NCBI GenBank assembly: GCA_021209625.1
Contig: JAJOHZ010000004.1
Span: forward strand, 1 to 44,590
Origin: Erysipelotrichaceae bacterium
GTDB taxonomy: Bacteria; Bacillota_I; Bacilli_A; Erysipelotrichales; Erysipelotrichaceae
Length of the DNA: 44,590 bases
Direction: 5' to 3'
Position 1 is the stretch's first letter. The number at the start of each line of letters is the position of its first letter. The notes under the pieces were generated by a model. That model was given only the letters and a program-made list of their open reading frames with translations, was not told where the DNA came from and did no database searches. Positions 16,316 to 43,621 of the stretch are shown piece after piece. The translations under genes were made by a program, and so were the position numbers.

Positions 16316-16975
16316 TTATTTTAATACCTTAAGTAAATGATCTGAGGTGGTGGTCCAACCAAAGATACCACCTTGTTGATTAATCATACGAATCGCTGCT
16401 TCTTGATCTGCTGGATCAAAAGCGGCTGTTCCATCTTCCATCATGAGGCATTCATACCCACGATCATTGGCTTCACGAATGGTGGTATGAACACATACAT
16501 GCGTGGTGACTCCACACACAATTAAGCTTTCAATGCCTTTGTTTTGAAGAATCAGTTCTAAATCAGTTTTGTAAAATGAGCCCTTCCCTGGTTTATCAAT
16601 CACAGGTTCTCCTACTAAAGGTTTGAGTTCTTCCACAATGTCATGACCCACTTCACCACGTATCAGAATACGTCCCATTGGTCCATCTTCTCCAATGGCT
16701 TTAGAACGGCGAAGTTTAGAAGGTGGACAATCACTCATATCAGCACGATGTCCTTCACGAGTATGAATCACAAACATACCTTTGGCTCTTGCGGCTTCCA
16801 AAATCGTTTTCACCGTTGGGATAATGCTCATGGTTGGAGTCACATCATTGCCTAAGGCTTCTCCAAATCCACCACGAGCACAGAAATCACGTTGCATATC
16901 AATGATTAATAAAGCCGTTTTTTCTAAATCAAAATCAAAAGCAAATGGTTTCGCATCTACGACAAATTTTCTCAT
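16316..16975 (-). CDS. Isochorismatase-like cysteine hydrolase, biuret-hydrolase-like
   Basis: A 219-aa amidase of the isochorismatase-like family with the full triad: Asp in LLIIDMQRDFCARGGFG, Lys in DKPGKGSFYKTDLE and Cys in GVTTHVCVHTTIREANDRGYECLMMED. The extra motifs HTREGHRADMSD and GRILIRGEVGHDIVEEL are the ones I associate with biuret hydrolase and related ureide amidohydrolases rather than nicotinamidase. It would release NH3 from a small amide such as a biuret-, oxamate- or N-carbamoyl-type compound; the substrate is an inference. Its ATG overlaps the stop of NCS2 copy 2 (ATGA), so it is coupled to transport. Confidence 0.82.
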   Translation of the reverse strand: MRKFVVDAKPFAFDFDLEKTALLIIDMQRDFCARGGFGEALGNDVTPTMSIIPTVKTILEAARAKGMFVIHTREGHRADMSDCPPSKLRRSKAIGEDGPMGRILIRGEVGHDIVEELKPLVGEPVIDKPGKGSFYKTDLELILQNKGIESLIVCGVTTHVCVHTTIREANDRGYECLMMEDGTAAFDPADQEAAIRMINQQGGIFGWTTTSDHLLKVLK

Positions 16976-18477: not shown

Positions 18478-18491
18478 GTCTCCTCCTATCA

Positions 18492-18546
18492 TTTACATGT
18501 AAAGTGTAAAACAATGCGTTATAATTGTATTCAGCAACACTTTACA
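18492..18546. promoter_or_regulatory. Divergent operator region, pucR / permease operon
   Basis: A perfect palindrome TTTACATGTAAA (18492-18503) overlaps TGTAAAGTGT (18498-18507), whose exact reverse complement ACACTTTACA occurs at 18537-18546. The inverted pair brackets the probable promoters between the two divergent genes. PucR is the obvious candidate binder. The core AAAGTGTAA recurs upstream of allH at 25572-25580. Confidence 0.5.
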
Positions 18547-18607
18547 AAACGAAGCGGTTACAATTGTTTTATTTTACAACTAAGCACACAAATATGGGAG
18601 AAAACAC

Positions 18608-20170: not shown

Positions 20171-20230
20171 TTCATCACTTTACCTCATGAAAAAACATGG
20201 TATAGTAGAGATAACCTTGGGAGGGAAAAC

Positions 20231-20302
20231 ATGTTATTTCTAGAAATCATTTTGTTTATATTTTTAATTTTCTTTAACTATTTTCATTCGTATCGATTAT
20301 GA
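20231..20302 (+). CDS. Tiny ORF, 23-aa hydrophobic peptide
   Basis: ATG 20231 follows GGGAGGG at good spacing. The peptide MLFLEIILFIFLIFFNYFHSYRL is a single membrane span. It overlaps the next tiny ORF by 4 bases (ATGA) and lies between pucR and a terminator. It may be a genuine small membrane protein, or the first half of a ~60-aa protein broken at the A7 run that follows. Too short for the ORF track. Confidence 0.45.
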   Translation: MLFLEIILFIFLIFFNYFHSYRL

Positions 20303-20415
20303 AAAAAAGAGGAAAGAAACGCTTGTTTGGTCACTTCATTCATACCTTCTTCAATAAAGACTTATATGATGAATATGATCAATACAAGGAAAACTCATCA
20401 TCACTATCTGAGTAA
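20299..20415 (+). CDS. Tiny ORF, 38-aa basic/acidic peptide
   Basis: MKKRGKKRLFGHFIHTFFNKDLYDEYDQYKENSSSLSE: a strongly basic N-terminus and an acidic C-terminus. It starts within the stop of the 23-aa ORF and ends just before a terminator. The pairing of a membrane span with a basic cytosolic tail would make sense as one protein, so a single-base indel is a real alternative. Confidence 0.4.
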   Translation: MKKRGKKRLFGHFIHTFFNKDLYDEYDQYKENSSSLSE

Positions 20416-20421
20416 ACAAAC

Positions 20422-20450
20422 AAGCACTGGTTCACACCAGTGCTTACTTT
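20422..20450. terminator. Bidirectional terminator between tiny ORFs and ndk
   Basis: AAGCACTGG (20422-20430), loop TTCACA, CCAGTGCTT (20437-20445), with T-rich flanks. It serves convergent transcripts; on the minus strand it closes the carbamoyltransferase-kinase operon. Confidence 0.8.
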
Positions 20451-20898
20451 TATGCTTCATTAAACCACAAATCACATTCAAACTCAGCTGCCTCAACCGA
20501 ATCTGACGCATGAATAAGATTTCGAATCATCCGAGAAGATGTTTTTGCTAAAGCTAGTGAATCTTCACCATATCGACCTCGAATACTGCTTGGATCAGCC
20601 AAAGAAGGATCAGTAGCTCCAATTTTAGTTCTGATGTGTTGAATAAGTGATTCATCATCACTCTCACATTCTAAGATAATTACTTTTTGATCTTTAAACT
20701 CATTAAGAATCATCTCTTTAAACCCTGGAAGTTAAGTCGTACAATCACTTCATGATAGTGTTTAAGAATTACTTCTTCTTTAACCACCACTTCTTTCATC
20801 TTACTGATAACACAAGGCAATGACTTCAACTCATTTAAAATGACATGTTCTAGTCTTCGCTTCATTGCGTCAGGCTTGATTAACACAAAACTCTTCAT
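20450..20898 (-). pseudogene. ndk: Nucleoside diphosphate kinase, apparent frameshift
   Basis: Two track pieces form one NDPK of ~149 aa. The first (20710-20898) gives MKSFVLIKPDAMKRR and ends FQGLKR; the second (20450-20713) gives IGATDPSLADPSSIRGRYG and the active-site His in NLIHASDSVEAAEFE. A -1 shift at 20710-20713, where TGA overlaps ATG, separates them within the conserved core, so two independent proteins are unlikely. The enzyme exchanges phosphate between NTPs and NDPs. It starts within the carbamate kinase stop (4-base overlap), an unusual partner that fits an energy-yielding operon. Confidence 0.85.
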
Positions 20899-21809
20899 CG
20901 ATCACTCACAATACGGGTACCTGTTTCACCCTTTAATGCTTCTGAAGCTTTATCAAGTAAGGTGATGATGGTGGTTTTATCTTTCGCACCACTCACAAAG
21001 CTTAATGCTGCTTCCACTTTAGGTAACATGGATCCTGGCGCGAAGTGGCCTTCTTGAATAAATTGTTTGGTTTCTTCAATGCTCATGCTAGCTAACCATT
21101 GTTGTTTTGGAGTGCCATAGTAAACGGCTACCTTCTCAACAGCAGTTAAGATAAAGAGCACATCCACATCCAATTCTTTCGCAAGTAAAGCACTTGCACT
21201 GTCCTTATCAATGACCGCTTCTACCCCAACATACCCTTGATCTGTCGCAATGACCGGGATACCACCTCCACCAGCACACACCACCACATGATGTTGGTTG
21301 AGGGCATCTTGAATCGAGGTTAAGTTAGTAATATGTTGTGGCTTTGGAGAAGCCACGACACGTCGATAACCACGTCCTGAATCTTCCACTACAGGAATCC
21401 CTTCTTTAACTAAAGCTGATGCTGTGGCTTCATCCATGAAACCACCTATCGGTTTAGTTGGATGGGTGAAGGCAGGATCCTTTGGATCCACTTCAACCAT
21501 GGTTAACACATAATCAACAGGCACATTAACACCATGCACAGTGAGCGCATGTTGAAGCTTACGGGTCAAGTCAAACCCAATGTACCCTTGACTCATCGCA
21601 ACACTCACATACAAAGGAATATCCAGTTGAGTGTTCATCACTTGATGAATCTTCCCCACTTGTGGTCCATTACCATGAGTAATCAGGACATCATGACCTT
21701 GTTGAATGAGGGATGCAATGATATCTGCACTATGGGTTAATGCACTTTCTTGTTCTTTCAAATCATTTCCTAATGCGTTGCCTCCTAAAGCAATGACAAT
21801 TTTAGCCAT
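20895..21809 (-). CDS. arcC: Carbamate kinase
   Basis: 304 aa, full length. Motifs are IVIALGGNALG, ITHGNGPQVGKI, GRGYRRVVASPKP, VVCAGGGGIPVI, VIDKDSASALLAKEL and FAPGSMLPKVEAALSF. It converts carbamoyl phosphate plus ADP to ATP plus carbamate (NH3 + CO2). Here it overlaps the DUF1116 gene by 8 bases and so belongs to the putative oxamate carbamoyltransferase operon, matching AllK/YbcF in the E. coli allantoin locus, rather than to an arginine deiminase operon (no arcA or arcB here). Confidence 0.95.
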   Translation of the reverse strand: MAKIVIALGGNALGNDLKEQESALTHSADIIASLIQQGHDVLITHGNGPQVGKIHQVMNTQLDIPLYVSVAMSQGYIGFDLTRKLQHALTVHGVNVPVDYVLTMVEVDPKDPAFTHPTKPIGGFMDEATASALVKEGIPVVEDSGRGYRRVVASPKPQHITNLTSIQDALNQHHVVVCAGGGGIPVIATDQGYVGVEAVIDKDSASALLAKELDVDVLFILTAVEKVAVYYGTPKQQWLASMSIEETKQFIQEGHFAPGSMLPKVEAALSFVSGAKDKTTIITLLDKASEALKGETGTRIVSDR

Positions 21810-23208
21810 GTGATTTCTCCTTTAATTGTTGATAAGATGCAAGTAAAGCTTGATTGAAACAAGCCATAGGTGGTGTTACCACACCTGCACCAATTTGGCC
21901 TACCCCAGCTTCTTTATGCGCAATTCCTGTATTAATAATAGGTAAGACATTGCGTTTCACCACTTTGACCACATCAATCCCTGTTGGGGTTCCCATGAAG
22001 TTAAGGGCTGGTAACGCAAAAGATGTATTTTCTCTCATGGTAATATTGAACATGCTGTGAGTGTAATTCATCGCATCATCCACATTACCTCCCACAAACT
22101 GCGTGATGGCAGGCGATGCACCCATCGCAAATCCTCCAATACCACATGTTTCCGTGATGGTAGAATCCCCTAAGTCTAGATTTGCATCTTCATCACTGTA
22201 TCCCGCAAACAATAATCCTTCCACAAAATTGGCAGGAGCAACAAACCATGATTTGACTCCACTTCCACTGACTCGTAATCCAAAGTCAACCCCATTACGC
22301 GCCATGGTGGTCACCAAAGTTGAATAAGGGATACCATGAGCAGCTTCCATGATGGACTTGGTTGCTGGCATGGATAAGTTTAAGAAATAATGATCATTGG
22401 TTTGAATGAAGCGAATGACACGTTCAATTTGATCATGTTTGAATGGTGTTTTAAGTATGCTTGGTACCACTTCTTTAAAGAATAAAGAGGTAGCTGCTTT
22501 GTTACGATTATGACATTCATCCCCCATTTGTAACGCTTGGGCAATCAATGATTTTAAATCAATGCCTTCATCATACATAAAGATAGCTGCTTTCATCACA
22601 GGAAGAAGTTCTTCTTTAATCCAGTTAAGACGATGAATCACACTTTCATCATAAGCACCAAAACGTAGAACTTTACCCAATCCTTCATTCACTGTACAGT
22701 ACGCTTTATTTCCATAGGGCTTGTTTAACACTACATGCACTGGCATGGAAGCAGAAATCACCCCTGCCATTGGACCAACCGCATTATAGTGATGAGCAGG
22801 AGCAAATTCAATCTTACCACTGGATGCCAATGCTTTGGCTTCTTCAACACTGTTGGCTTTCTTTTCAAAAAGAAGTGCCCCAATAATCGCTCCTTGCATC
22901 GGTCCACACATGCGATCCCATGTGATAGGAGGACCAGCATGTAAAATAAGATTGTCATGATATCCTTCAATCATGTCTTTAGCTAATCCCATATCAATCA
23001 GATATGGATGACCTGATAACACAATGTTGACGGCTTTTTCATTCGCAGCTTTAACACGCTCATCATGGGATAACCCATCAATGGCTTCAATTAATGCTTT
23101 GTCTCCTCCCGCAAGTGGAGCCCAATTCACTTGAGTTACCTTTTGATTTTGAAGCTTTAAATCATCATAAAACAAGCGTGTGCCTATGTTTAGAAAATGT
23201 TGACTCAT
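21802..23208 (-). CDS. allG: DUF1116 protein, YlbE/AllG-type carbamoyltransferase subunit
   Basis: 468 aa, the DUF1116 family (E. coli YlbE). Characteristic segments are VNWAPLAGGDKALIEAI, HAGPPITWDRMCGPMQGAIIGALLFE, FAPAHHYNAVGPMAGVISASMPV and TCGIGGFAMGASPAITQFVGG. In E. coli this protein acts with FdrA and YlbF in oxamate carbamoyltransferase activity, converting oxalurate and phosphate to oxamate and carbamoyl phosphate. It is one base after fdrA and overlaps carbamate kinase. It is intact. Confidence 0.88.
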   Translation of the reverse strand: MSQHFLNIGTRLFYDDLKLQNQKVTQVNWAPLAGGDKALIEAIDGLSHDERVKAANEKAVNIVLSGHPYLIDMGLAKDMIEGYHDNLILHAGPPITWDRMCGPMQGAIIGALLFEKKANSVEEAKALASSGKIEFAPAHHYNAVGPMAGVISASMPVHVVLNKPYGNKAYCTVNEGLGKVLRFGAYDESVIHRLNWIKEELLPVMKAAIFMYDEGIDLKSLIAQALQMGDECHNRNKAATSLFFKEVVPSILKTPFKHDQIERVIRFIQTNDHYFLNLSMPATKSIMEAAHGIPYSTLVTTMARNGVDFGLRVSGSGVKSWFVAPANFVEGLLFAGYSDEDANLDLGDSTITETCGIGGFAMGASPAITQFVGGNVDDAMNYTHSMFNITMRENTSFALPALNFMGTPTGIDVVKVVKRNVLPIINTGIAHKEAGVGQIGAGVVTPPMACFNQALLASYQQLKEKSHG

Positions 23209-23209
23209 C

Positions 23210-24727
23210 TTATTTTCCCTCCTTCATAAGGTTGGCAACGCGAGCACAGGCATCTAAGTTGCTTGTTGCTACGTGAACTCCAATGGTCTGTAATGCTTGA
23301 ACACTGGATTGATATCCTTGTTTATCCTTGTCTGTGGCACAGACATAGGCCACCACATCAAATGAGCGATGAGACGCAAGTTTAAACGCTTCTTGAAGTG
23401 TTTCAAGACTTTCTTCAACCGCTTGTGGATGGGCACCATATCCTAAAACAAAGTCAAGCAACAACACACGTGTGCTTTCTTCTTTCGCGGCTTTAAGAAT
23501 CCAATCATTTCTTAACGTTGGTTCAATCATTGGATGTGGACGACCATTAGTAAACTCATCATCACCTAAATCAAGCAGTGTATGGTGTTGTCCACTGATG
23601 TCATGAATCGCATGTTCGTTGTGATGCAGATTGCTTTGAATGAGTCCTAATGGAGCGAGTTGATCTAATGCTTCATAACACAAGGTTCCTCCACAATACA
23701 ATCCCACAAAACGGTTATCTTTAAGCTCTTGTTTCTCTAGATTGAGTGGTTTGAATGGCTCTAAGTTTCCATTAAAGGAAGGTGATAATGACACCGCTTT
23801 ATGAGCTGCTTCACTTAAACTGGACGCATAATGAAGATTGCCTTCATCTTTCATCACTTCTTTATTTCCTAAGAAACACACCACACTTGGTTTATCAATG
23901 CCCTTCAGGGTTTGAATCATAAGTTCTTTCACTTCTTTTGCGGGTGGTTTTGAAACACAGACAATCACTTTGGTGGCTTCATCATGGGCTAAACGACGTA
24001 ACCCTTCTCTCATCATTAAACCTTGAACGGCTAAGGATAAGTCACGACCTCCTGTACCAATCGCATCGGTGATTCCTCCACCTAAGCGGTCAATTTGAAC
24101 CATCACTTCTTGTGAACCCGTTCCACTTGCGGCCACAATGCCAATATCTCCACGTCTCACTTCATTCGCAAAGCAAAGGCCCACTCCACCCAATACCGCT
24201 GTTCCACAATCTGGTCCCATCACAAGCAATTGATGATCAAACGCGTATTGTTTCAAAGCCACTTCTTCTTCAATGCTCATGTTGTCAGAGAAAATCATGA
24301 CATCCATACCTTCTCTTAAAGCTTGCATGGCTTCCTTCGCAACGTATTGTCCAGGAATGGAGAAGATAGCTACAGTGGGCTTAACCCCATCTTCTATCAC
24401 ATCATCAATGGAGGTGTACACTTTCTCTTCATTGGATGAAGAAGAGGACTTACTCCCTCCAGAAAGTTGTTCTTGAATGTGATTAAAAGCTTCTAGAACA
24501 CGCTCTTCACTTTGGGCAATGACTCCAATGATCAAATCATTGACGGAGGTGCTTTCCACTTCAGGAGTGGAAAGACCTACTTGCGCAATAATGGCTTTGT
24601 TCATGTCCGTTGCCATCGCAATGACCACTTCTTGTATGCCTTCTTGTTTCTTCACTTTAGCTGCGAGTGACATTAAACTGACTGAATCAATGTAACGATT
24701 CTTAAATACTTGTGTTGATTGATGCAT
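23210..24727 (-). CDS. fdrA: FdrA family protein (AllF), carbamoyltransferase subunit
   Basis: About 505 aa from ATG 24727 (MHQSTQVFKNRYIDSVSLM), which has AAGGAG nine bases upstream; the track's 30 extra residues come from the end of allH read in another frame. FdrA resembles succinyl-CoA synthetase: a CoA-binding-like fold (MGPDCGTAVLGGVGLCFANEV, GIVAASGTGSQEVMVQIDRLGGG, AIGTGGRDLS) and a ligase-like C-terminal half. A Ser-rich linker (GGSKSSSSSNEE) joins the N-terminal ACT-like part. It is a partner of YlbE and YlbF in oxamate carbamoyltransferase. Confidence 0.9.
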   Translation of the reverse strand: MHQSTQVFKNRYIDSVSLMSLAAKVKKQEGIQEVVIAMATDMNKAIIAQVGLSTPEVESTSVNDLIIGVIAQSEERVLEAFNHIQEQLSGGSKSSSSSNEEKVYTSIDDVIEDGVKPTVAIFSIPGQYVAKEAMQALREGMDVMIFSDNMSIEEEVALKQYAFDHQLLVMGPDCGTAVLGGVGLCFANEVRRGDIGIVAASGTGSQEVMVQIDRLGGGITDAIGTGGRDLSLAVQGLMMREGLRRLAHDEATKVIVCVSKPPAKEVKELMIQTLKGIDKPSVVCFLGNKEVMKDEGNLHYASSLSEAAHKAVSLSPSFNGNLEPFKPLNLEKQELKDNRFVGLYCGGTLCYEALDQLAPLGLIQSNLHHNEHAIHDISGQHHTLLDLGDDEFTNGRPHPMIEPTLRNDWILKAAKEESTRVLLLDFVLGYGAHPQAVEESLETLQEAFKLASHRSFDVVAYVCATDKDKQGYQSSVQALQTIGVHVATSNLDACARVANLMKEGK

Positions 24728-24737
24728 TATTTTCTCC

Positions 24738-25567
24738 TTATTTGTGAGTGTATCCATATACCGCAACCCCAACCATAAAATCAGTGCCTGATGTATGACC
24801 AATCCGTTGACACACATCAGCTTTCTCTTTCACCTTATGAGGTCGACTCAGTGAAAGAATTAAATCTTGGTGAACTTCATTAAATTGTCCTTCAAAGGCT
24901 TGTCTTAACATCATTGACTGACCTGCGTTGTTTGATTCAATAAAGGTTCACAACTATGCCTTAATACTTGAATGAATCCTAAATGATAACAACTCCATGC
25001 CAGTGCTAACATGCCCACTAACACATCATCCCCACTTGGGGTTTGTCCAATACCACATCCAATGAGCTTAGGAAGCAATTGAATGTCATGAGAGCGAATA
25101 TACTCTTTAAGCAAGGTTACCAAGTGTTGAGAAAAGACATCATGAGGGGTTGAAAACAAACGTATGGCCCCGTCATGGTGGGAATGTTGAATTAACCATT
25201 TTGTCAAGGATTGATGACCTAAGCGAATGCTTTCAAGATCAGGATAACATCCAATCACGTGATCCAATAAAACGGTGGAGGCCTGTGATAAATCAACAGA
25301 CAATGAACCCATGTGTAAGGTATGCCCTAAACTGTACACAGGCATTCCTTGGTTGAGTTGAAGGTTTAAGAAGGATTGAAGGTCACACACACACGTTAAA
25401 GGAGCTTTAGGTTTATCTTGACTAACCAAGGTAATCATCCCAAGATCATTACTCAAGTTCAGTGCATGATCATACACACTGTGCACCTTTAAATTCCCAT
25501 GATTAAGATAGGTTTTGAGTTGTTGATCCACCCATAGAGCTTCTACCACATGACCACCACCTTTCAC
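24738..25567 (-). pseudogene. allH: DUF2877 protein (YlbF/AllH type), apparent frameshift
   Basis: The track shows 218 aa ending TTQVSQ (stop 24911-24913). The family continues, and in the -1 frame from 24914 the sequence MMLRQAFEGQFNEVHQDLILSLS ... RIGHTSGTDFMVGVAV completes the domain, with the hallmark GHTSGTD; the joined protein is ~276 aa, like E. coli YlbF. Adding one A (CAA ATG) would align with YlbF without a gap. The core GIGQTPSGDDVLVGMLALAW is intact. The start is uncertain: GTG 25567 lacks a good RBS, and GTG 25549 follows GGTGGTGG. It is first gene of the operon. Confidence 0.85.
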
Positions 25568-25650: not shown

Positions 25651-25677
25651 AATAAAAAAAGAGAGTTACCTCTCTTT
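25651..25677 (-). terminator. Terminator of the mur/PTS operon
   Basis: AAAGAGAG-TTAC-CTCTCTTT is a perfect 8-bp stem; on the minus strand it is followed by T7. It begins at the stop of the EIIA gene. Confidence 0.85.
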
Positions 25678-26126
25678 CATTCATACGTTATCACAACATC
25701 ATCAATGCTCATATCTCGTGCATCATCATGAAGCGTGAGGTTCACTTCCTTTGGTTTGTCTGAAATGACCATCATGGTGTCTGTGCTCAGATGATGGGCT
25801 TGAATCGCTTTGATGTCACATTCAACACACAGTTGATGACGTTTCACCACATCTCCTTCTTTGATGAAGGCCTTGAAATGTTTCCCATTCAGTTTGACTG
25901 TATCAATGCCAATATGAATCAAGATATCCATCCCATCACACTGAATACCAAAGGCATGATTTGTGGGGAAGACCATGGTAACAACCCCATCACATGGGGC
26001 TACAATGCGTCCATCACTTGGAGTAATCGCAATTCCTTCACCAAGCATTCTTTGCGAAAAAACGGGATCACTCACTTCTTTCAAAGGTTTAAGTGTGCCA
26101 TTGACACATGCTGTTAGTGTATTCAT
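25677..26126 (-). CDS. PTS glucose-type EIIA protein
   Basis: 149 aa, EIIA-Glc (Crr) fold. The phospho-acceptor His is in ILIHIGIDTVKLNG and the partner His in PTNHAFGI; IVAPCDGVVTMVFP opens the domain. The upstream EIIBC lacks an EIIA domain, as is usual for MurP, so this protein probably supplies its phosphate. It overlaps mupG by 4 bases and closes the operon. Confidence 0.9.
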   Translation of the reverse strand: MNTLTACVNGTLKPLKEVSDPVFSQRMLGEGIAITPSDGRIVAPCDGVVTMVFPTNHAFGIQCDGMDILIHIGIDTVKLNGKHFKAFIKEGDVVKRHQLCVECDIKAIQAHHLSTDTMMVISDKPKEVNLTLHDDARDMSIDDVVITYE

Positions 26127-27175
26127 TGTTTCTCCTTAATGAGTTTTAGTTTCATGCCAGGAAGACATCGATTAAGTAAATCTAAATCATTCACTTGTCC
26201 AATCACATTGACACGATCATCAGCTTCTAAATCCTTTTTAAGGATCTGTACTTCACCACTGTAACGTAGGTAATTTTCATTATCAAGTGTGATACTTCCA
26301 CGATGACGACTAACGGTATGTTGAGGACTGATTTTTTGTCCCGGCGTAGCATAAAGACGAGATTCCAATAAGCGCAAAACTTGCTTTGGTGAATCACTAC
26401 GAATGGTCATCACAGAAGATAGATCAAGATGAGATGGTGCATTATAAGCGCACTCCACAGTGATGATCCCTTCATTGATAAAGGTAAGGCACGCTTCATT
26501 CGCAACTGAAGAGAGTGTTCCATCCCCTACCACAATGATATCAATGCCTGTACTGATCAGATCAATGCAACCAACAAGAGGAGCTGTATAACGATGGAGT
26601 TCACAGGTTGGTAGTCCTTCATGAATGGGACCACGTTTCATTCCATCTGATGGAATGAAGGCAGCCACAGGTATGTTGTTTTCAATGAAGATACGATTCT
26701 TTTCAATCAGTTGATCCAAATCAAGTCCTGTTTCTGGTCGTGGATAAAAATTATGCATTGCCATCAAAGAGTGCGTGATTAATGATTTGAGTTCAATCAA
26801 TCCTTCCTCATTCATGGATGCATTGACACATAGATCAACGTATTGACCCATCTTAACCATGTCCTCAAAACTAAAACCAAAATCAGTGCGCAACACATCA
26901 AGATGACACTGATTGACAAGTGTTTTAAAGTCATTGACGTTTAACGCTTCTAAGGAGCGAGGTGAAACATCCGCAATGATGCGAAAGCCTATGGTTTTTA
27001 ACTCCTTCAACATGCCCAATGCTTTGGTGCGATAATCAGGTTGTTTGATTTCTTCTTCAATGTGCAGGGAAGTAAAGATAAAACTTCCCTCACTGTAAAG
27101 TGAGGAAAGTTGATCTTTGATGGAATCCCATGTACTGACATACACGGAATACCCTAATGCTTTAGACTTCCGCAA
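26123..27175 (-). CDS. mupG: MupG-type 6-phospho-N-acetylmuramidase (DUF871)
   Basis: 350 aa, DUF871 family: an N-terminal TIM barrel (LGYSVYVSTWDSI, FTSLHIEEE, DVSPRSLEALNV, HNFYPRPETGLD) and a small cyclophilin-like C-terminal domain. The S. aureus homologue MupG hydrolyses MurNAc-6-P-GlcNAc after PTS import. Position fits: it overlaps the EIIBC gene by 14 bases, with murQ and murR upstream. Catalytic acidic residues probably include those in LRTDFG and HEGLPTCELHR. Confidence 0.87.
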   Translation of the reverse strand: MRKSKALGYSVYVSTWDSIKDQLSSLYSEGSFIFTSLHIEEEIKQPDYRTKALGMLKELKTIGFRIIADVSPRSLEALNVNDFKTLVNQCHLDVLRTDFGFSFEDMVKMGQYVDLCVNASMNEEGLIELKSLITHSLMAMHNFYPRPETGLDLDQLIEKNRIFIENNIPVAAFIPSDGMKRGPIHEGLPTCELHRYTAPLVGCIDLISTGIDIIVVGDGTLSSVANEACLTFINEGIITVECAYNAPSHLDLSSVMTIRSDSPKQVLRLLESRLYATPGQKISPQHTVSRHRGSITLDNENYLRYSGEVQILKKDLEADDRVNVIGQVNDLDLLNRCLPGMKLKLIKEKQ

Positions 27176-28586
27176 CGGTTTTATCCTTAATCACGAAGGT
27201 TGTAATGATGAACCCTGCAACATAAGACACCACTAAACCAATAAAGTAATGAATGATGCTTTGTGACTGCATGAGTGGTAAGGCAACCAGTCCTGATGGA
27301 CCCCATGCATTCGCCATGACTTTCATCAGCATGACATACGCTCCACCAAAGCCTGCGCCTAAACCGGCGGTAATGAATGGTGTAAACATGGGTAGTGTTA
27401 CCCCATAAATGAGTGGTTCACCAATGCCTAAGAATCCTGCTGGTAATGCACCTGCAATAACCTTCTGCATACGTTTGTTTCCAGTGCGTTTAGCTTTAAG
27501 ATAAATCGCAATAGCAGCCCCTACTTGACCTGCTCCAGCCATAGCTAAGACCGGGAATAAACTAACGCCTCCCATTTCAGAAAGTTGAATCGCATAGATA
27601 GGGATAAGTCCATGGTGTAATCCTAAGAGCACCATTGGTAAGAATAACGCTGATAAGAGGTATCCACTTAAAATACTGACCGCTGGAATTGGTGAATCAA
27701 TGATGACACTTAATCCACGAACCAAGGCATCAGAGACAAAACCTGTGGCTGGCATAATCACAAAGACAAGTAAAATTGAAACGATGAGCATGGTTACAAA
27801 TGGCGTCACCACTAAATCTAACACATCAGGCACGTTCTTACGAACCCATTTTTCAACTTTTGCTAAGACCCAAACAGCTAAGATAACCCCAATAATCCCA
27901 CCTTTACCTGTCGTTAACACAGAACGTAATGGCGTTTCTTCGTTGAATAATCCAAAGATTTTTGAGATTTCTACGATGTTTGCTCCAATAGAAATTCCCC
28001 CAATCATTCCCCCTAATCCTTCAGTTGCACCAAATTGTTTGGCTGCATTGATCCCTGTGTAAATGGCGAAGTATCCAAGGAAAGCTCCACCAATAAGAGC
28101 AAAGAGTAAACGTGTGGTTAACCAGAAACCAGTGGCTTCTAAGATTCCTTGACCTTGTAAGGTTTGAATGAGTGATGCGAATCCATTGAATAATCCAGCA
28201 GCAATAATCGCTGGAATTAAAGGAATAAAGATTTCCGCAATCGTACGAATCGCAGCTTTGAATGGACTTTGTTTTTGAAGTGTCTTCATTGCGGCTTTGT
28301 TGTCTTCCCATTCTCCTGTTTCAAGAGCAACACGTGGAAGATCAAATTTCTCTACCGCTTCATCTGTAACTTTCTTCGCTTTACCTGGACCTAAAACCAC
28401 TTGTAAGGTTGGACCATCTTCCACTAATCCTAAAACACCTTCTAAACCTTTAAGGTCATCAAGTTGTGCTTTTGATGAATCCTTAAGTGTAACTCTCATG
28501 CGAGTCATACAGTTTGTAATCTTGACCACGTTGTCTTTACCACCGACAAGGTCAATCAGACGAGAAGCAAGCTCTAGATTGTTCAT
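27162..28586 (-). CDS. murP: PTS EIIBC, MurP-like (MurNAc or MurNAc-GlcNAc)
   Basis: About 474 aa from ATG 28586 (MNNLELASRLIDLVGG) behind TAGGAGG; the track adds six residues. The EIIB domain is N-terminal with the phospho-Cys in ITNCMTRMRVTL; the EIIC domain follows from ~residue 105 (RTIAEIFIPLIPAIIAAGLFNG, with GIGEPLIYGVTLP near residue 390). There is no EIIA domain; a separate EIIA is encoded in the same operon. Context with murQ, mupG and murR points to muramic-acid sugars rather than sucrose or trehalose. Confidence 0.88.
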   Translation of the reverse strand: MNNLELASRLIDLVGGKDNVVKITNCMTRMRVTLKDSSKAQLDDLKGLEGVLGLVEDGPTLQVVLGPGKAKKVTDEAVEKFDLPRVALETGEWEDNKAAMKTLQKQSPFKAAIRTIAEIFIPLIPAIIAAGLFNGFASLIQTLQGQGILEATGFWLTTRLLFALIGGAFLGYFAIYTGINAAKQFGATEGLGGMIGGISIGANIVEISKIFGLFNEETPLRSVLTTGKGGIIGVILAVWVLAKVEKWVRKNVPDVLDLVVTPFVTMLIVSILLVFVIMPATGFVSDALVRGLSVIIDSPIPAVSILSGYLLSALFLPMVLLGLHHGLIPIYAIQLSEMGGVSLFPVLAMAGAGQVGAAIAIYLKAKRTGNKRMQKVIAGALPAGFLGIGEPLIYGVTLPMFTPFITAGLGAGFGGAYVMLMKVMANAWGPSGLVALPLMQSQSIIHYFIGLVVSYVAGFIITTFVIKDKTVAEV

Positions 28587-28606
28587 GTTACCTCCTACGC
28601 TCATGA

Positions 28607-29503
28607 CTATTGCTTCACACAGGCACGGATATGGCCTTGTGCTTGTTCAAGCATGGATAATGCTTGAGATTCATCACACTGCATGAGTATCATCGTGATG
28701 GCGACCTTCACTTTCCCATGAGCTAGAGCAAGAGTTGTCTTCGCTTCTTCTTGGGTACAGTTGGTTGCGCTCATAATGATATTCTCTGCGCGTGTAATTA
28801 ATTTTTGATTGGTGGGCATCACATCCACCATTAGGTTTTGGTAGACTTTTCCAAGTCCAACCATGCTGGCGGTTGAAATCATGTTAAGCACCAGCTTTTG
28901 TGATGTTCCCGCTTTTAATCGTGTTGAACCGGTTAAGACTTCAGGTCCACAAACCAGTTCAATCGCAAGATCAACTTCCTTCGCCATTTCAGAATCAGCA
29001 TTGTTCGCAATGGACACGGTTTTACACCCTAAGCTTTTCGCATAGCGCAAGCCATGAATGACATACGGTGTTCGTCCACTTGCGGCAATTCCAATCACAA
29101 TGTCTTTCTCATTCACATGAATGGCTTGCATTTCTTCTTGAGCTAAAGTTGAACTGTCCTCAGCCCCTTCAATGGCTTTCACGAAGGCTTGTTCTCCTCC
29201 TGCCAGTAATCCCACCACGGTGTTGTGATCAACTCCAAAGGTAGGTGGACATTCTGCCGCATCCAATAAACCTAAGCGGCCACTGGTTCCAGCTCCAAGG
29301 TAGATAATACGACCTTGATGTTGGAGGGAGTGTGTGCTCCATTCAATGACTTGAGCTATCTTGGGTAATTCCTTTTCAATGGCTTTAATTACATGATAAT
29401 CTTCTTGATTCATGAGGGTAATAATGTCTAAGGGTGTCATTTGATCCAAATTCATTGAACGTGGGTTGCGTTGTTCTGTGGTAAGCTTGTGTAAGTTAAT
29501 CAT
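28607..29503 (-). CDS. murQ: N-acetylmuramic acid 6-phosphate etherase
   Basis: 298 aa, normal length. Sugar-isomerase-like fold with GAGTSGRLGLLDAAECPPTFG (catalytic Glu within DAAE), GIAASGRTPYVIHGLRYAKSLG and GSTRLKAGTSQKLVLNMIST. It cleaves the lactyl ether of MurNAc-6-P to GlcNAc-6-P and D-lactate, feeding peptidoglycan fragments into glycolysis. It precedes murP by 20 bases and follows murR by 8. Confidence 0.96.
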   Translation of the reverse strand: MINLHKLTTEQRNPRSMNLDQMTPLDIITLMNQEDYHVIKAIEKELPKIAQVIEWSTHSLQHQGRIIYLGAGTSGRLGLLDAAECPPTFGVDHNTVVGLLAGGEQAFVKAIEGAEDSSTLAQEEMQAIHVNEKDIVIGIAASGRTPYVIHGLRYAKSLGCKTVSIANNADSEMAKEVDLAIELVCGPEVLTGSTRLKAGTSQKLVLNMISTASMVGLGKVYQNLMVDVMPTNQKLITRAENIIMSATNCTQEEAKTTLALAHGKVKVAITMILMQCDESQALSMLEQAQGHIRACVKQ

Positions 29504-29511
29504 AAGGACCT

Positions 29512-30360
29512 CTATTCTTGAGTTGATTTATCGATGTGTGTCATCTTAAGTTGTTTAAGACTATCATCAAAGTGTTGATTCACATAAGCAGCATACAGAA
29601 TATCAATGATATTGAGTTGAGCAATGCGTGAAGACATCGCTCCACTGCGAAAGATGAATTCTGTAGCGGAAACTGAAAGATTGTAGTCAGCGAGTTTAGC
29701 TAAAGGATTTTCTTCAAAGCGCGTAATAGCAATGACTTTTGCTCCCTTTTCTTTCGCTGCTTTAATGCATTCAATGACTTCTTTAGTCATACCAGAGTAA
29801 GAAATAGCAATCGCTAAGTCTTCACTGATCATGTTACGTGCTTGAAGAAGTTGAGCATGCCAATCATCGTTGATGATGCATGGTTTATTGATGCGTAGGA
29901 ATTTAAGATAAGCATCTTTGGCAACAAGCAGCGAAGCTCCCATCCCAAACAAGCAAATGCTTCGACTCTGTAACATCAAATCCACACACGCTTTAACTGT
30001 GTTGTCATCCATTAGTTTTGCGGTGTTATCCAAGGACAGAATGTTTTTTGAAGTCACTTTTTCAATGATGTCGTGTAAGCTGTCTTGAAAGGTAATCTCT
30101 TTGCCTTTTTCTTTCAAATCCAGATCCAGTAAAGCCAGTTCATACACTAATGATTGATGAAACTCTTTGTAGCCATCAAACCCTAATTTGCGACATAATC
30201 TCACCACACTGGAAGGAGAGGTGTACGATGCCTTTGCACATTCATGGATGGTCAGACCTACCATGACTTTAGGATCATGAAGGATAAATTCTATGATTCC
30301 TTTTTCAGCTCCACTCGCATGCTTCAGATATTCATTGAGACGAACAATCACATTTTTCAT
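29512..30360 (-). CDS. murR: MurR/RpiR-family regulator
   Basis: 282 aa: N-terminal HTH_6 (FILHDPKVMVGLTIHECAKASYTSPSSVVRLCRKLGFDGYKEF) and C-terminal SIS domain (SICLFGMGASLLVAKDAY, DLAIAISYSGMTKEVIECIKAAKEKGAKVIAIT). It is first gene of the mur operon and probably senses MurNAc-6-P. A perfect 19-bp palindrome lies ~100 bases upstream. Confidence 0.9.
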   Translation of the reverse strand: MKNVIVRLNEYLKHASGAEKGIIEFILHDPKVMVGLTIHECAKASYTSPSSVVRLCRKLGFDGYKEFHQSLVYELALLDLDLKEKGKEITFQDSLHDIIEKVTSKNILSLDNTAKLMDDNTVKACVDLMLQSRSICLFGMGASLLVAKDAYLKFLRINKPCIINDDWHAQLLQARNMISEDLAIAISYSGMTKEVIECIKAAKEKGAKVIAITRFEENPLAKLADYNLSVSATEFIFRSGAMSSRIAQLNIIDILYAAYVNQHFDDSLKQLKMTHIDKSTQE

Positions 30361-30613: not shown

Positions 30614-31693
30614 ATGACACAACGTGAAAAAGAAATCATTGAGATACTCAAGGTTGAACCAACCATCTCACAGGAAGACTTAGCCACTCGTCTTAACATT
30701 ACCCGATCTTCTGTTGCGGTTCATATCACTAACCTTATTAAAAAGGGAATGATTCTTGGCAAGGGATATGTGGTTAAAGATGAACCGTATGTCTTAGTCA
30801 TTGGAGGTTCTAACATTGACATTCAAGGCATTCCTCATTCACCTCTTATTCATCAAGACTCCAACATTGGTCATGTGAATATTTCATTTGGAGGGGTTGG
30901 ACGCAACATTGCGGAAAATTGTGCCCGTCTTAACTGCCCTACGCGTTTGTTGAGTGTGGTGGGATCGGATGTGTATGGTCAAAGCATGTTGGCGCATGCC
31001 AACAGCATTGGTTTATCCATGAGTGATACTTTAGTTTTATCCAACCAAAAAACATCGACCTACCTAAGCATCTTAGATCATGAACATGATTTAGCTTTGG
31101 CCATCAATGCCATGGACACCATGAATGCTTTAACCAAAGACGTAGTTTTAAGTAAACGAAGATTACTTGAGTACGCTCAAGTGATTGTGATTGACACCAA
31201 TGTCAGTGAAGAAGTGATTGAGACCATCTTGATGTGTGCTAAAAACACACCGATTTTTGTGGACACTGTATCCATCACTAAAGCCATTAAGATTAAACCT
31301 TACCTCAATCAAATTCATACCCTAAAACCTAATAAAGCTGAACTGTATGCACTTGTGGATGAATCACAGCATCTCACACTCGAAGAATGTGCATTAAGGT
31401 TACCAGCGCCATATGCCTTCATCTCACTTGGTGCACAGGGGGTGCTCATTAAAGATCATCATACCTTAACACATCTTCCTGCACCACCCATTGAGGTTGT
31501 GAATGCAACCGGAGCAGGCGATGCTTTCATGGCTGGACTTGTGTACGCCTACATGAAAGATCAAACGCCACTTCAAAGCGCAAAACTTGCCATGGCTGCT
31601 TCTCGCATTGCCTTGCGCAGTGAAACCACCATCTCAGACTTAATGAATGAAACCAAATTACACCACACCTTAAAGGAGATAACTCATGCTTAA
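30614..31693 (+). CDS. psuK: HTH-PfkB sugar/nucleoside kinase, pseudouridine kinase-like
   Basis: 359 aa. Residues 1-60 are a winged HTH ([44 protein letters not shown]). Residues 65-355 are a ribokinase-fold kinase ([29 protein letters not shown], and the PfkB signature [18 protein letters not shown] with catalytic Asp). The layout matches E. coli YeiI and related kinases. It is paired with psuG (8-base overlap), so pseudouridine to pseudouridine 5'-phosphate is the likely reaction. The HTH fusion suggests it also regulates its own operon. RBS AAAGGA. Confidence 0.85.
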
Positions 31694-32606
31694 AGAACAT
31701 TTACACATTCATCCAGAAGTAGCCTTAGCCCTTAAAGAAGGCAAACCTGTTGTTGCATTAGAATCCACCATTATTTCTCATGGTATGCCTTATCCACACA
31801 ATGTCGCTATGGCCAAAGAAGTTGAAAACATCATTCGCTCTCATGGGGCTGTTCCTGCCACCATAGCCATTTTGCATGGAAAACTTAAAGTTGGACTCAC
31901 TGATGATGAATTAGAACTGCTTGCGACATCCCATGACATCACCAAAGCTTCACGTCGTGACTTAGCTTTCTTAGTGGCTTCAAAATCACATGGTGCAACC
32001 ACCGTGGCTTCCACCATGATCATTGCTGATCTTGCTGGCATTCGTGTCTTTGCGACCGGAGGTATTGGTGGTGTTCATCGTGGTGCAGAAACCAGTTTTG
32101 ATATTTCTGCTGATTTGATTGAATTATCTCAAACCAATGTTGCGGTCATTTGTGCTGGAGCTAAATCCATCCTTGATATTGGTTTAACCCTTGAATACTT
32201 AGAAACCCATGGTGTTCCTGTGGTTGGATACCAAACCAAAGAACTGCCTGCTTTCTATACATCCAAGAGTGGATTTGGTGTCGATTATCAACTTGATACT
32301 TCCCATGATATTGCCTTAGCTCTTAAAACCAAATGGGATTTAGGACTTCAAGGGGGTGTCATCATCGCTAATCCGATTCCAAAGGCCTATGAAATGGATG
32401 CCGATGTCATCAACAATGCCATTACCACAGCCGTAAAACTGCAAGAAGAAGCAGGCATTAAAGGAAAAGAAAGTACACCATTCCTTTTATCCAAAGTCAA
32501 AGAACTCACGGGTGGAGACAGCTTAGCTTCCAATATTCAACTTGTATACAATAATGCCCACTTAGCAGCTCAGATTGCAGTGGATTACGCCAATTTAAAG
32601 AAATAA
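31686..32606 (+). CDS. psuG: Pseudouridine-5'-phosphate glycosidase
   Basis: 306 aa, normal length. Signature segments are [85 protein letters not shown] and [15 protein letters not shown]. It breaks the C-glycosidic bond of pseudouridine 5'-phosphate to uracil and ribose 5-phosphate. It starts inside the kinase gene and ends at a terminator. Confidence 0.96.
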
Positions 32607-39841: not shown

Positions 39842-40723
39842 ATGAACATTCAATTAATCCATTTCCCAATGAAGTATGGTTGTAACACACCTGGAGCTGA
39901 TGAAGCCAGTGAAGCACTGAACTCAAGTCAATGGTGTGACCACCATCAAATTAAAACCCACTCTATTCCCATTACTCAAGTATCAGATTCCACCTTACCC
40001 AATGACAACACCATCATGAATGCTGCCAAGCTTCATCATGATGTGGTTTTATCCATCTTACAAAAAGGGGATTTTCCTTTGTCCTTTGGAGGGGATCACA
40101 CCTGTGGAATTGGGGGATCTTGGGCGGCCATGCAGGCTTATCCAGAGGATGTGACCATTCTTTGGCTCGATGCTCATGCGGATACCCACACTCAACACAC
40201 CTCTCCATCGAAACACATTCATGGGATGCCTTGTGCCATCCTTCAAGGGTGTTGTGATGAACCTCTTAAGATTGATTGTTCTCCCCTACTAACAAAACAC
40301 ATGGTGTATGTGGGACTTAATTCCTATGAAGAGGCAGAAATTAATCATATACACAACCAAGGCATTGCTCATTTAAATGCGACAATGATTCAATCTATTG
40401 GTATCAAGGAAACCCTCAATTGGATACGATCTCACATTAAAACCAAAGCGTTGTATGTTAGTTTTGATTTGGATGTGCTTCATCCTGATGTCTTTTACTC
40501 CGTTAACGTGAACATGGATCAAGCGTATACGACAGGACTTGGACTTCAACTTGATGAGGTTAAAGCCATCCTAACCATGTTAATCAGTGAATATCAGTGT
40601 GTAGGCATGGATGTGGTTGAATACAACCCACGATTGGACACCAACAATCAAGACTTTAATCAGATGATCGCCTTGTTAGATCATATCGTTCACCTTGTGA
40701 AGGAGAAAACACATGAATCGTAA
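39842..40723 (+). CDS. Arginase/agmatinase/formiminoglutamase family protein
   Basis: 293 aa. The binuclear Mn site residues are all present: GGDHT, DAHADTHT and SFDLDVLHP. The family usually has LDP after the last pair; here it is LHP, but that residue is not a metal ligand. Near the C-terminus CVGMDVVEYNPRLD is the conserved Glu/Asn segment. SPSKHIHGMPCA resembles arginase (SGNIHGMP), so arginine to ornithine plus urea is the best guess. It overlaps the MurE-like gene by 11 bases, an unusual link between amino-acid and wall synthesis genes. Confidence 0.88.
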   Translation: MNIQLIHFPMKYGCNTPGADEASEALNSSQWCDHHQIKTHSIPITQVSDSTLPNDNTIMNAAKLHHDVVLSILQKGDFPLSFGGDHTCGIGGSWAAMQAYPEDVTILWLDAHADTHTQHTSPSKHIHGMPCAILQGCCDEPLKIDCSPLLTKHMVYVGLNSYEEAEINHIHNQGIAHLNATMIQSIGIKETLNWIRSHIKTKALYVSFDLDVLHPDVFYSVNVNMDQAYTTGLGLQLDEVKAILTMLISEYQCVGMDVVEYNPRLDTNNQDFNQMIALLDHIVHLVKEKTHES

Positions 40724-42128
40724 CCTTTCTGATTATTTCCCAGATGCTCCATCCATTGAATTCATGGATGTGAAGACCAGTTCCAATGAGATTCAACCTC
40801 ATGATTTGTTTGTCTGTATTCAAGGAGTCAGTGTGGATCGTCATGATTTTCTACCCCAAGCCGCTTTAGCCAATGCGGCAGGAGCCATTGTCTCAAAAGA
40901 TGTCAACACACCTTTACCTGTATATAAAGTGGCAAATCCTAATGAGACCCTGGTAGAACTGGTCAAGAAAGCCTATCCTCATGATCAACTTCGATTAGTG
41001 GGTGTCACAGGGACAGATGGAAAGACAACAATCTCCACAATCTTAGGATCATTTCTTAATCATTTAACTTCTGCGGCCGTCATTGGTACCAATGGGGCTT
41101 TTAGCCCTAATTATGCGGAAGCCACAAAAAACACCACTCCAGCCATTGAACATCTGTATCGCTTACTTCATACCTTCATGATAAAAGGTGACAGTATTGC
41201 GATCATGGAAGCAGGTTCTGAAGGACTTCATTATGGAAGAACACAAGGGCTTGAGTTTGATGTTTCCATCTTCTCTAACCTAACACCGGAACATCTTAAT
41301 ACTCATAAAACGATGGAAAACTATTTTGATGCGAAATCGATGTTGTTTAAACAGACCAAAACAACAGGAACAGCCATCATCAACATTGATGACCCTTATG
41401 GTCAAGCATTTAAAGACTTATGTCGATGCAAGGTCATCACGTATGGACAAAGTGAATCAGCGGATATTCGCTTATCCAACATCATGGTACATCATGATCA
41501 TACTTCTTTTACCATCCATCATCTTGGTAAAACTAAAACACTCACCACCAACTTACTAGGTGAATTCAATGCTTATAATCTAGCCGCAACCTTTGGAGCT
41601 ATTCATGCTTTAGGGTATTCGTATGAATGTGTGTTTACTAAACTGCGTGACCTTAATGTCTCTGGGCGTTTACAACGTGTAGAACTTGGACAACCCTTTA
41701 AAGTATTGGTGGATTATGCTCATACTCCCAATGGTTATCTTTCCTTATTTAAATACATGAAAGCATTAAAAATGAATCGATTAATTGTGGTGGCCGCCAG
41801 TGCTGGCGGACGCGATCATGATAAACGTCCAACCATGGGTAAGATATTAAGTGATGAAGCCGATGTGGTGGTCATTACCAGTGAAGACCCTCGCTTTGAA
41901 GATCCCATGGATATTGCAACCATGATGATGCGTGATGTCACACAAAAGAATGTTCAAGTCATTCTTGATCGTTCTGAAGCCATACATCGTGCCATCCTCA
42001 TGGCAACCCATGATGATTGTATTTTAATCTTAGGTAAAGGGGATGAAAATTATCAAGTCATTAAAGATCAACGTATTCCATTCAATGATATTGATCAAGC
42101 CAAAGCTGCTATTCTTGCTCACCATTAA
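40713..42128 (+). CDS. murE: MurE-like Mur ligase (UDP-MurNAc-tripeptide synthetase)
   Basis: 471 aa with the three Mur ligase domains: an N-terminal UDP-binding domain (VKTSSNEIQPHDLFVCIQG), the ATP-binding domain with P-loop GVTGTDGKTTIST and TTPAIEHL, and a C-terminal domain with GRLQRVELGQPFKVLVDYAHTPNGY and ITSEDPRFEDP. The segment equal to the DNPR (meso-Dap) specificity motif reads EDPR, so the third-residue amino acid is not obvious. The start overlaps the arginase-family gene with an AAGGAG RBS inside it. It may be the main MurE or a second ligase with its own amino acid. Confidence 0.88.
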   Translation: MNRNLSDYFPDAPSIEFMDVKTSSNEIQPHDLFVCIQGVSVDRHDFLPQAALANAAGAIVSKDVNTPLPVYKVANPNETLVELVKKAYPHDQLRLVGVTGTDGKTTISTILGSFLNHLTSAAVIGTNGAFSPNYAEATKNTTPAIEHLYRLLHTFMIKGDSIAIMEAGSEGLHYGRTQGLEFDVSIFSNLTPEHLNTHKTMENYFDAKSMLFKQTKTTGTAIINIDDPYGQAFKDLCRCKVITYGQSESADIRLSNIMVHHDHTSFTIHHLGKTKTLTTNLLGEFNAYNLAATFGAIHALGYSYECVFTKLRDLNVSGRLQRVELGQPFKVLVDYAHTPNGYLSLFKYMKALKMNRLIVVAASAGGRDHDKRPTMGKILSDEADVVVITSEDPRFEDPMDIATMMMRDVTQKNVQVILDRSEAIHRAILMATHDDCILILGKGDENYQVIKDQRIPFNDIDQAKAAILAHH

Positions 42129-42136
42129 TGAAAATC

Positions 42137-42165
42137 AAGAAATGAGTCACTCATTTCTTTTTTTG
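42137..42165 (+). terminator. Terminator after murE-like gene
   Basis: AAGAAATGA, loop GTCAC, TCATTTCTT and T7. Confidence 0.88.
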
Positions 42166-42228: not shown

Positions 42229-43218
42229 ATGAAACAACTGTTAGGAATACACCATGTGACTGCCATCACAAGCAGTGCTGAAAGAAATTATGAATTTTTT
42301 ACTTATGTCTTAGGCATGCGATTGGTCAAGAAAACCATTAATCAAGATGACATTCATACCTACCATCTCTTTTTTGCGGACAATGAAGGTAGTGCAGGAA
42401 CTGACATGACCTTCTTTGATTTCCCTGGCATGAACAAAGGGTTAAAAGGAACCAATGAGATTTCTCGAACTGGATTTAGAGTCCCTAATGACGCCGCTTT
42501 AGAGTATTGGATCAAACGTTTTAATCATTACAAGGTGAAACACGAACCCATTAAAACTTTATTTGATAAAAAAATGATCTTTTTCAGTGACTTTGATGAT
42601 CAAGACTATGCTTTGGTGTCTGATGAACATGATCATGGCATCAAAAGTGGTACACCATGGTTACTTGGACCCGTTCCTAATGAATATGGCATCACAGGAC
42701 TTGGACCTATCTTTTTCAGAGTCAATGATTTAAAACGCATGATTTCTATTCTTGAAGAAGTGATGATGATGCGGTTGGTTGGTAGTGATGATCATTACAC
42801 CCTCATTGAAATGGGAGAGGGTGGCAACGGAGCCAGTGTGATTCTTGATTATCAACCCCTTCTAAGACAAGCATATCAAGGTTTTGGTGCAGTGCATCAT
42901 GTTGCCTTTAGAATAGAAGACAAAGCTCATTTGGATGCTTGGATTGATCGTCTCAACAGTTTTAATGCAGGTCACTCTGGATTTGTGGATCGCTTCTACT
43001 TCAAATCACTGTACACTCGTTTGTATCCTCACATTCTCTTTGAGTTTGCGACAGAAGGCCCTGGTTTCATTGATGATGAAGAAGACATCACGATTTTAGG
43101 AGAAACTTTAGCCTTGCCACCACGTTTTAGATCACAACGTGAACTGATTGAAAAACAAGTGCGTCATTTTGATACGACACGTAGCAACAAATCGTTTGAA
43201 AAAGAATACTATGACTGA
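42229..43218 (+). CDS. mhqO: VOC-family ring-cleaving dioxygenase, MhqO-like
   Basis: 329 aa with tandem vicinal-oxygen-chelate (glyoxalase/dioxygenase) modules. The first begins LLGIHHVTAITSSAERNYEFFTYVLGMRLVKKTINQDD, the second GITGLGPIFFRVNDLKRM; metal-ligand candidates are HH in IHHVT, the His in GAVHHVAFRI and Glu in LFEFATEGPGF. The C-terminal LPPRFRSQRELIE is a mark of the MhqO/YdfO group that degrades quinones or hydroquinones. RBS AAGGAG. It is coupled to the MarR gene. Confidence 0.88.
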   Translation: MKQLLGIHHVTAITSSAERNYEFFTYVLGMRLVKKTINQDDIHTYHLFFADNEGSAGTDMTFFDFPGMNKGLKGTNEISRTGFRVPNDAALEYWIKRFNHYKVKHEPIKTLFDKKMIFFSDFDDQDYALVSDEHDHGIKSGTPWLLGPVPNEYGITGLGPIFFRVNDLKRMISILEEVMMMRLVGSDDHYTLIEMGEGGNGASVILDYQPLLRQAYQGFGAVHHVAFRIEDKAHLDAWIDRLNSFNAGHSGFVDRFYFKSLYTRLYPHILFEFATEGPGFIDDEEDITILGETLALPPRFRSQRELIEKQVRHFDTTRSNKSFEKEYYD

Positions 43219-43621
43219 CTTAAAAACCATCACTATCCTTTTTAGAGCTACCAACACATTAACCCAAGAGATCGCTCATCAAGTGAATGAGTTAGGTCTT
43301 TCACTCTCCTCATTCATGGCATGTGAAGCACTTTATCATAAAGGTCCTTTAAGTGTTGCTCAGCTACAAAGCAAAGTCTTGATTGCCAATTCTTCATTGA
43401 GTTATGTGATTGAACAACTCAAAGAGAAAGGCATCATTGATATCAACCATGACGAAAACGACAAACGCATTCGCCTTTGCTCATTAACACAACGTGGACA
43501 AAATATGATGAGTGCGGTCTATGAGAAGCATGTCTCGGCACAACGGGTAAGACTTGATCGATTAACACCTCATGAGGAAATCCTTCTTCAGCATTTACTG
43601 AAAAAGATTGGATTAGACTGA
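43211..43621 (+). CDS. mhqR: MarR-family regulator, MhqR-like
   Basis: 136 aa from ATG 43211 (MTDLKTITILFRATNTL), which overlaps the mhqO stop by 8 bases; the track's start at 43148 reads out of frame through mhqO. The winged HTH is at about residues 45-105 (GPLSVAQLQSKVLIANSSLSYVIEQLKEKGIIDINHDENDKRIRLCSLTQRG). It probably represses this operon through the 22-bp palindrome at 42181. Confidence 0.9.
   Translation: MTDLKTITILFRATNTLTQEIAHQVNELGLSLSSFMACEALYHKGPLSVAQLQSKVLIANSSLSYVIEQLKEKGIIDINHDENDKRIRLCSLTQRGQNMMSAVYEKHVSAQRVRLDRLTPHEEILLQHLLKKIGLD

Follow-up and report, generated by a model that had tools for sequence, protein, structure and literature searches.

The window, by which we mean the whole stretch of 44,590 nucleotides of Erysipelotrichaceae DNA that was analysed (contig C48 of its assembly, which spans 1.12 Mb and is 60% complete), carries a two-gene unit on its forward strand. 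The first open reading frame (39842–40723, 293 aa) encodes an arginase-family protein of the arginase subtype, as judged by profile match, and the following one (40713–42128, 471 aa) encodes a second MurE, of the UDP-MurNAc-tripeptide synthetase type. These two same-strand frames share 11 nucleotides (40713–40723), exactly as a sequence-only reading of this DNA had claimed, and a Shine-Dalgarno sequence for the ligase, AAGGAG (40700–40705), lies within the arginase gene, 7 nt upstream of the ligase ATG. Because of the overlap and the internal Shine-Dalgarno site, the two genes are probably translationally coupled. An intrinsic terminator-like stem-loop with a 10-bp stem and a T run (42137–42159, forward strand) closes the unit, and the next gene, which is glyoxalase-like and begins at 42229, has its own promoter-like site; both elements come from a scan for consensus matches only, which returned 5 terminators compared with 1.4 in shuffled sequence. 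Throughout the text, G000 denotes the window's assembly and g1 its genus, which also includes G001 and the congeners G002–G005. Values of dN/dS between the window species and two congeners (G000, G004 and G005) are 0.09 for MurE and 0.10–0.16 for arginase, and both genes are therefore maintained by purifying selection. The same gene order is present in 'Erysipelotrichaceae bacterium isolate clean450', whose ligase is 98% identical, and the ligase of 'Erysipelotrichia bacterium CROMO_A_155' is 79% identical.

Several neighbouring features were noted. The glyoxalase-like gene and a MarR-like gene (42229–43621) adjoin the arginase-murE pair in two genera that differ in gene order, the second being represented by G013 (L064:686–2139) and G227 (L227:812–2244). 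Elsewhere in the window, inspection by eye identified a MurNAc recycling operon-like group (25677–29503) encoding PTS EIIA, a MupG-like DUF871 protein, PTS EIIBC and MurQ, with an RpiR regulator (29512–30360) as part of it and a pseudouridine pair (30614–32606) after it. A ureide/purine-type cluster (16316–25567), also assigned by eye, contains two xanthine/uracil-type permeases, an isochorismatase, a PucR-like regulator, a carbamate kinase and YlbE- and FdrA-like proteins. Fragments of a tyrosine integrase and an IS91-like transposase at the contig end (1176–2436), unlike the rest in style, represent either a mobile element or an assembly join.

Score, fold and site residues all place the ligase in the MurE family. 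It passes the cut-offs of TIGR01085 (murE; 408 bits against 257) and of NF001126 (425 bits against 373), and its AlphaFold model (pLDDT 92) has the three-domain MurE fold, with TM values of 0.84–0.90 to the MurE proteins of S. aureus, E. coli (1e8c), M. tuberculosis and T. maritima. The ATP loop GTDGKT, the NTTP motif, the carbamylated-Lys site AKSMLF, the alpha-carboxylate residue R367 and K442/E445 of GKGDE are all intact, equivalents of R389/R383 and Glu468/460 are present in alignments, and the contacts to the UDP-MurNAc-dipeptide (NTTP, Ser169 and Arg176) are kept together with the MurE N-terminal domain. The DNPR motif of meso-Dap-type enzymes is absent; aligned with D413-N414-P415-R416 of E. 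coli is the sequence E391-D392-P393-R394 (EDPR; 41883–41894, forward strand). In DNPR, residues two and four contact the additional carboxylate of meso-Dap; the side-chain amine of the third amino acid is held, in the MurE enzymes of both E. coli and S. aureus, by the Asp at E. coli position 413 and the Glu of GKGxE, and in the S. aureus enzyme this amine is the epsilon-amine of lysine (PMC3829189). The best structural match of the window's MurE is S. aureus MurE with product. This L-Lys enzyme (4c12/4c13) shares the fold, the ATP loop, NTTP, the carbamylated Lys and the GKGxE Glu, but its motif is DNPA, whose Asp occupies the amine-binding position at which the EDPR of the window has Glu. The best sequence match in the PDB (E 3e-70) is the L-/D-Lys adding MurE of Thermotoga maritima (4bub), which likewise has an acidic second position (DDPR) but carries Asp at the first position and Ser at the place of R367.

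The partner protein matches PF00491 (5e-46) which, with the MurE cut-offs passed by the second protein, bears out the gene identities given in the sequence-only reading. Its best NCBIfam model is arginase TIGR01229 (1.6e-43), ahead of agmatinase and HutG; the score of 149 bits lies below the curated equivalog cut-off of 228, but is still the best among the arginase-superfamily models. The AlphaFold model (pLDDT 94) has a Bacillus arginase as its best solved structural match. In common with RocF (Bacillus caldovelox, 1cev/2cev; Thermus, 2ef4), the protein has the arginase fold, all six Mn ligands (GGDH, 40088–40099; DAHAD, 40169–40183; DLD, 40466–40474), the guanidinium-binding Glu (E260, 40619–40621) and the arginine-contacting loop TSPSxxIHGMP, and Ser137 is also kept. 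It differs from RocF, besides falling below the TIGR01229 cut-off, in the changes Asn130 to His and Asp183 to Glu and in an insertion of 6 residues after the metal motif.

We consider it rather probable, judging from sequence, that the pair produces L-ornithine and that this becomes residue 3 of the UDP-MurNAc-tripeptide. The operon would then be a translationally coupled unit for ornithine-type peptidoglycan, in which the arginase-family enzyme would convert L-arginine to L-ornithine and urea, and the second MurE would use ATP to join L-ornithine to UDP-MurNAc-L-Ala-D-Glu; the product, UDP-MurNAc-L-Ala-D-Glu-L-Orn, would give rise to stems with ornithine at position 3. We infer that the choice of amino acid may reflect a match of lengths, as the Glu at E391, one methylene longer than Asp, would reach the ornithine side chain, which is one methylene shorter than that of lysine, and the acidic D392 and E445 would complete the pocket for the terminal amine. 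Arginase activity in the genus, ornithine as the ligase substrate and ornithine in the wall are likewise predicted properties.

The arginase could also point to a different substrate. In the arginase alignment, the Asp183 to Glu change and the 6-residue insertion were found only in the window's genus, and because Asp183 and Asn130 are lost and the insertion gained, the substrate in this genus may have shifted away from arginine. The pair could then be functional with another guanidino compound, the ligase adding the resulting amine-bearing amino acid other than ornithine, a possibility with which the ligase's changes at SSE and HLN would agree. We think this unlikely, since Asp183 is intact in the arginases of relatives with the same ligase clade, His at 130 is shared by arginases of G151, G177 and G229 that are otherwise ordinary, and TSPSxxIHGMP, the guanidinium Glu and R367 of the ligase are all kept.

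The window's ligase is an extra MurE and not the housekeeping copy. Congeners G002–G005 carry another MurE in the block scpA-scpB-rluB-rsmE-X-murE-deoC, in the same place as in Erysipelothrix, and the neighbourhood of the window's ligase is not that of the housekeeping locus. No second MurE was found in G000, where the other Mur ligases are, by eye, MurC, MurF, FolC and a MurT-like protein, and the whole 9-kb housekeeping murE block is absent from the assembly. Because congeners carry the housekeeping murE and the block is missing from an assembly that is 60% complete, the apparent uniqueness of the window's MurE is most likely an assembly artefact. The search for another murE that the sequence-only reading had proposed was thus successful in the congeners but not in G000 itself, and we rejected the notion, prompted by the single MurE of this assembly, that the window's ligase is the housekeeping enzyme.

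Across genera, the housekeeping MurE looks like it is undergoing a graded takeover by ligases with Glu at the E. coli 413 position (Glu-413), because the housekeeping-locus copy (rsmE-mtaB-murE-deoC) of g3, g19, g56 and g67 lacks the ATP loop and NTTP, with its frame still open, and the Glu-413 ligase is intact, whereas both copies are intact in g1 and in G109/G123. The damaged copies (L342, L343, L344, L345, L346, L350 and L351) are full-length frames, apparently pseudo-MurEs, with no stop codons, which retain GKGxE-like C-termini. Other kinds of second MurE are widespread across Erysipelotrichaceae, and a divergent type with EDNSR/DNPR motifs, present in many members (for example L081–L086 and L088), was not found beside arginase in the sampled genomes. 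In the genus Erysipelothrix, MurE (L151, L153, G195/G200/G205) has His at 413 (TEHDNR) and DFGHA for DYAHT; this differs from both of the amine-type patterns and may mean that the third residue there lacks a side-chain amine.

Conservation of the pair, also raised by the sequence-only reading, was confirmed in congeners G003, G004 and G005, where arginase adjoins this ligase; the pair is absent from G002. Among 273 Erysipelotrichaceae genomes searched for adjacency, about 42 of which encode arginase-subtype proteins, arginase lies next to MurE in 13 genomes of 7 genera. The two genes overlap in g1 (four genomes) and g58 (G153), are 45 nt apart in g21 (G025) and are divergent in g9 (G013, G227), g52 (G109, G123), g56 (G150, G151) and g67 (G229). 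In the remaining arginase genomes the gene has another location, often flanked by a Ktr-type potassium transporter gene and glycerol kinase. If adjacency is given a rough probability of 0.003 per genome, 13/41 is implausible, although genomes of one genus share descent and the 13 cases are therefore not independent. A maximum-likelihood tree places the paired MurEs on four separate branches, namely a clade of g1, g52, g56 and g67, the enzymes of G013/G227 beside the g1 housekeeping enzymes, that of G025, and that of G153, a long branch of unsure position. This joining of separate MurE lineages to arginase argues for a functional tie. The MurE of G153 (L229:3333–4856), the sole one found in a genome that is 98% complete, overlaps arginase and has an aberrant C-terminal domain in which DNPR and GKGxE are unrecognisable. 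The pair is not indispensable, as NTTP, the HLN motif and the active-site Lys have all been lost from the paired MurE of congener G003.

The sequence-only reading had taken EDPR as a departure from the DNPR motif linked to meso-Dap. EDPR does stand at the place of DNPR, but we rejected it as a simple signal of DNPR loss, which is uninformative because Erysipelotrichaceae MurEs are usually DDPR even without arginase, the commonest motif being LTEDDPR. What distinguishes the paired MurEs is Glu for Asp at the first motif residue. Among the first 31 family genomes with data, a Glu-413 MurE was present in 10/10 genomes with arginase and 4/21 without, and in out-of-sample genomes, picked by arginase status or handle number before the motif was seen, the figures were 27/30 and 4/30. 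Overall, 37/40 arginase-positive and 8/51 arginase-negative genomes have Glu-413 (Fisher about 1e-13), or 16:2 against 6:32 when distinct genus-state combinations are counted (p = 2e-7); the counts were entered by hand, one table used 50 instead of 51, and the MurE of G153 is not alignable at this position. Predictions made in advance were borne out for the paired MurE of G227 and for the housekeeping MurE of G001, which has its own arginase and reads LTEEDPR, compared with LTEDDPR in G002, which has none. Glu-413 tracks arginase or arginine deiminase within g1, g10 (G190/G014) and g67 (G229/G230), and the contrasts within g3 and g52 agree, with exceptions. An unbiased scan of unpaired MurEs placed column 413 2nd of 485 for correlation with arginase; column 531 (F/Y) correlated slightly better, but was discarded as an unspecific marker since its Tyr is also usual in DNPR enzymes.

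The arginase-negative genomes with Glu-413 are informative: 7/8 encode the deiminase ArcA, all 7 also with ornithine carbamoyltransferase (OTC), compared with ArcA in 4/37 of the other arginase-negative genomes (p = 5e-5). Because seven of these eight exceptions carry ArcA and OTC, Glu-413 follows the ability to convert arginine to ornithine, by whichever of the enzymes this is done. G031 has Glu-413 but neither arginase nor ArcA/OTC was found in it, and G077, G106 and G224 carry arginase yet have Asp-413. No ArcA or OTC was found in congeners G003 and G004, which leaves arginase, of the enzymes searched for, as the one source of ornithine in these two genomes. An external check in Clostridia, in which ArcA is present in 4/4 Glu-413 genomes but in several DNPR genomes too, is only consistent with this pattern. 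Ornithinibacillus is a genus named for ornithine, and its MurE (L174) has Asp-413; Glu-413 is therefore not a universal ornithine mark. The suggestion of the sequence-only reading that the arginase supplies ornithine to a dedicated ligase gains support from the recurrent adjacency and the coupling to Glu-413; ornithine is the presumed substrate, and the Asp183 and Asn130 changes in the window's arginase count against it.

The second MurE could instead be a spare or regulated adder of lysine or meso-Dap, with the arginase serving nitrogen or energy metabolism and both the neighbourhood and Glu-413 reflecting family history. Arginase is a common catabolic enzyme and in most arginase-positive genera lies elsewhere, often by Ktr and glycerol kinase, and the abundance of other second MurE copies in the family would fit such a role. 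Congeners also carry DapF, because of which they probably make Dap or lysine too; the distribution of DapF among the family genomes has no clear pattern. Nevertheless, this explanation seems improbable to us, given that the adjacency arose with four different MurE branches, that Glu-413 follows arginase or arginine deiminase within genera and that residue 413 is the one that contacts the side-chain amine.

As a paralogue beside an amino-acid enzyme, the ligase might also have left wall synthesis and now make a small ornithine- or arginine-derived peptide, much as Mur-type domains serve in cyanophycin synthetase, a distant profile match of this protein. We regard this as very unlikely, as the protein retains the dipeptide contacts NTTP, Ser169 and Arg176 along with the MurE N-terminal domain, and the same clade provides the only intact MurE in sister genera. 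That the operon is a relic being lost from the genus, as the damage at catalytic positions in G003 and the lack of the pair in G002 could suggest, is hardly credible in view of dN/dS values of 0.09–0.16 and a window copy with all catalytic residues intact. Group B cross-linking, with a second ligase acting on the alpha-carboxyl of D-Glu, was set aside because a MurT/GatD-like pair in G000, identified by eye, points to amidated D-Glu.

Ornithine addition by the window's pair, the reading we prefer, has parallels in other bacteria, ornithine walls being known or reported in Thermus, Deinococcus, Treponema, Borrelia, Bifidobacterium and Limosilactobacillus fermentum. In Borrelia, ornithine made from arginine by ArcA and ArgF has been proposed to feed MurE for position 3, although this is a deiminase route and not an arginase-murE operon (PMC8092773). 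Ornithine also occupies position 3 in the walls of Deinococcus/Thermus and of gut spirochetes, which belong to other phyla (PMC6618347, PMC7738495), and in Deinococcus it has been described as an arginine-synthesis intermediate (PMC6618347). Because ornithine walls are known in these groups, and the Borrelia supply route has been proposed (PMC8092773), the chemistry itself is ordinary; the novelty lies in the operon, in its having been assembled repeatedly and in the proposed switch at a single residue. We found no report of an arginase-murE operon, or of wall analysis of Glu-413 species, in the open-access literature searched.

A broader proposition, which we hold to be evenly balanced, is that members of the Erysipelotrichaceae have repeatedly changed their third wall residue to ornithine by one recognisable route, and that Glu-413 is a family marker of ornithine-type walls. 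This route would comprise the gain of arginase, or of a deiminase and OTC, and the replacement of Asp by Glu at the MurE residue that grips the amine; the two genes would often be joined in one locus, and the old housekeeping MurE would decay in several genera. The basis for the choice of the third wall amino acid is only partly understood, and structures of S. aureus MurE revealed no residue fully responsible for the choice of lysine (PMC3829189). Erysipelotrichaceae offer a natural series of Asp and Glu MurEs in one family, with or without an ornithine-making enzyme, which renders specificity testable by a single-residue swap. If the proposition is true, ornithine walls would be predictable from sequence in poorly studied gut and environmental members of the family, which would be relevant to cell-wall hydrolases and to the sensing of wall fragments by the host.
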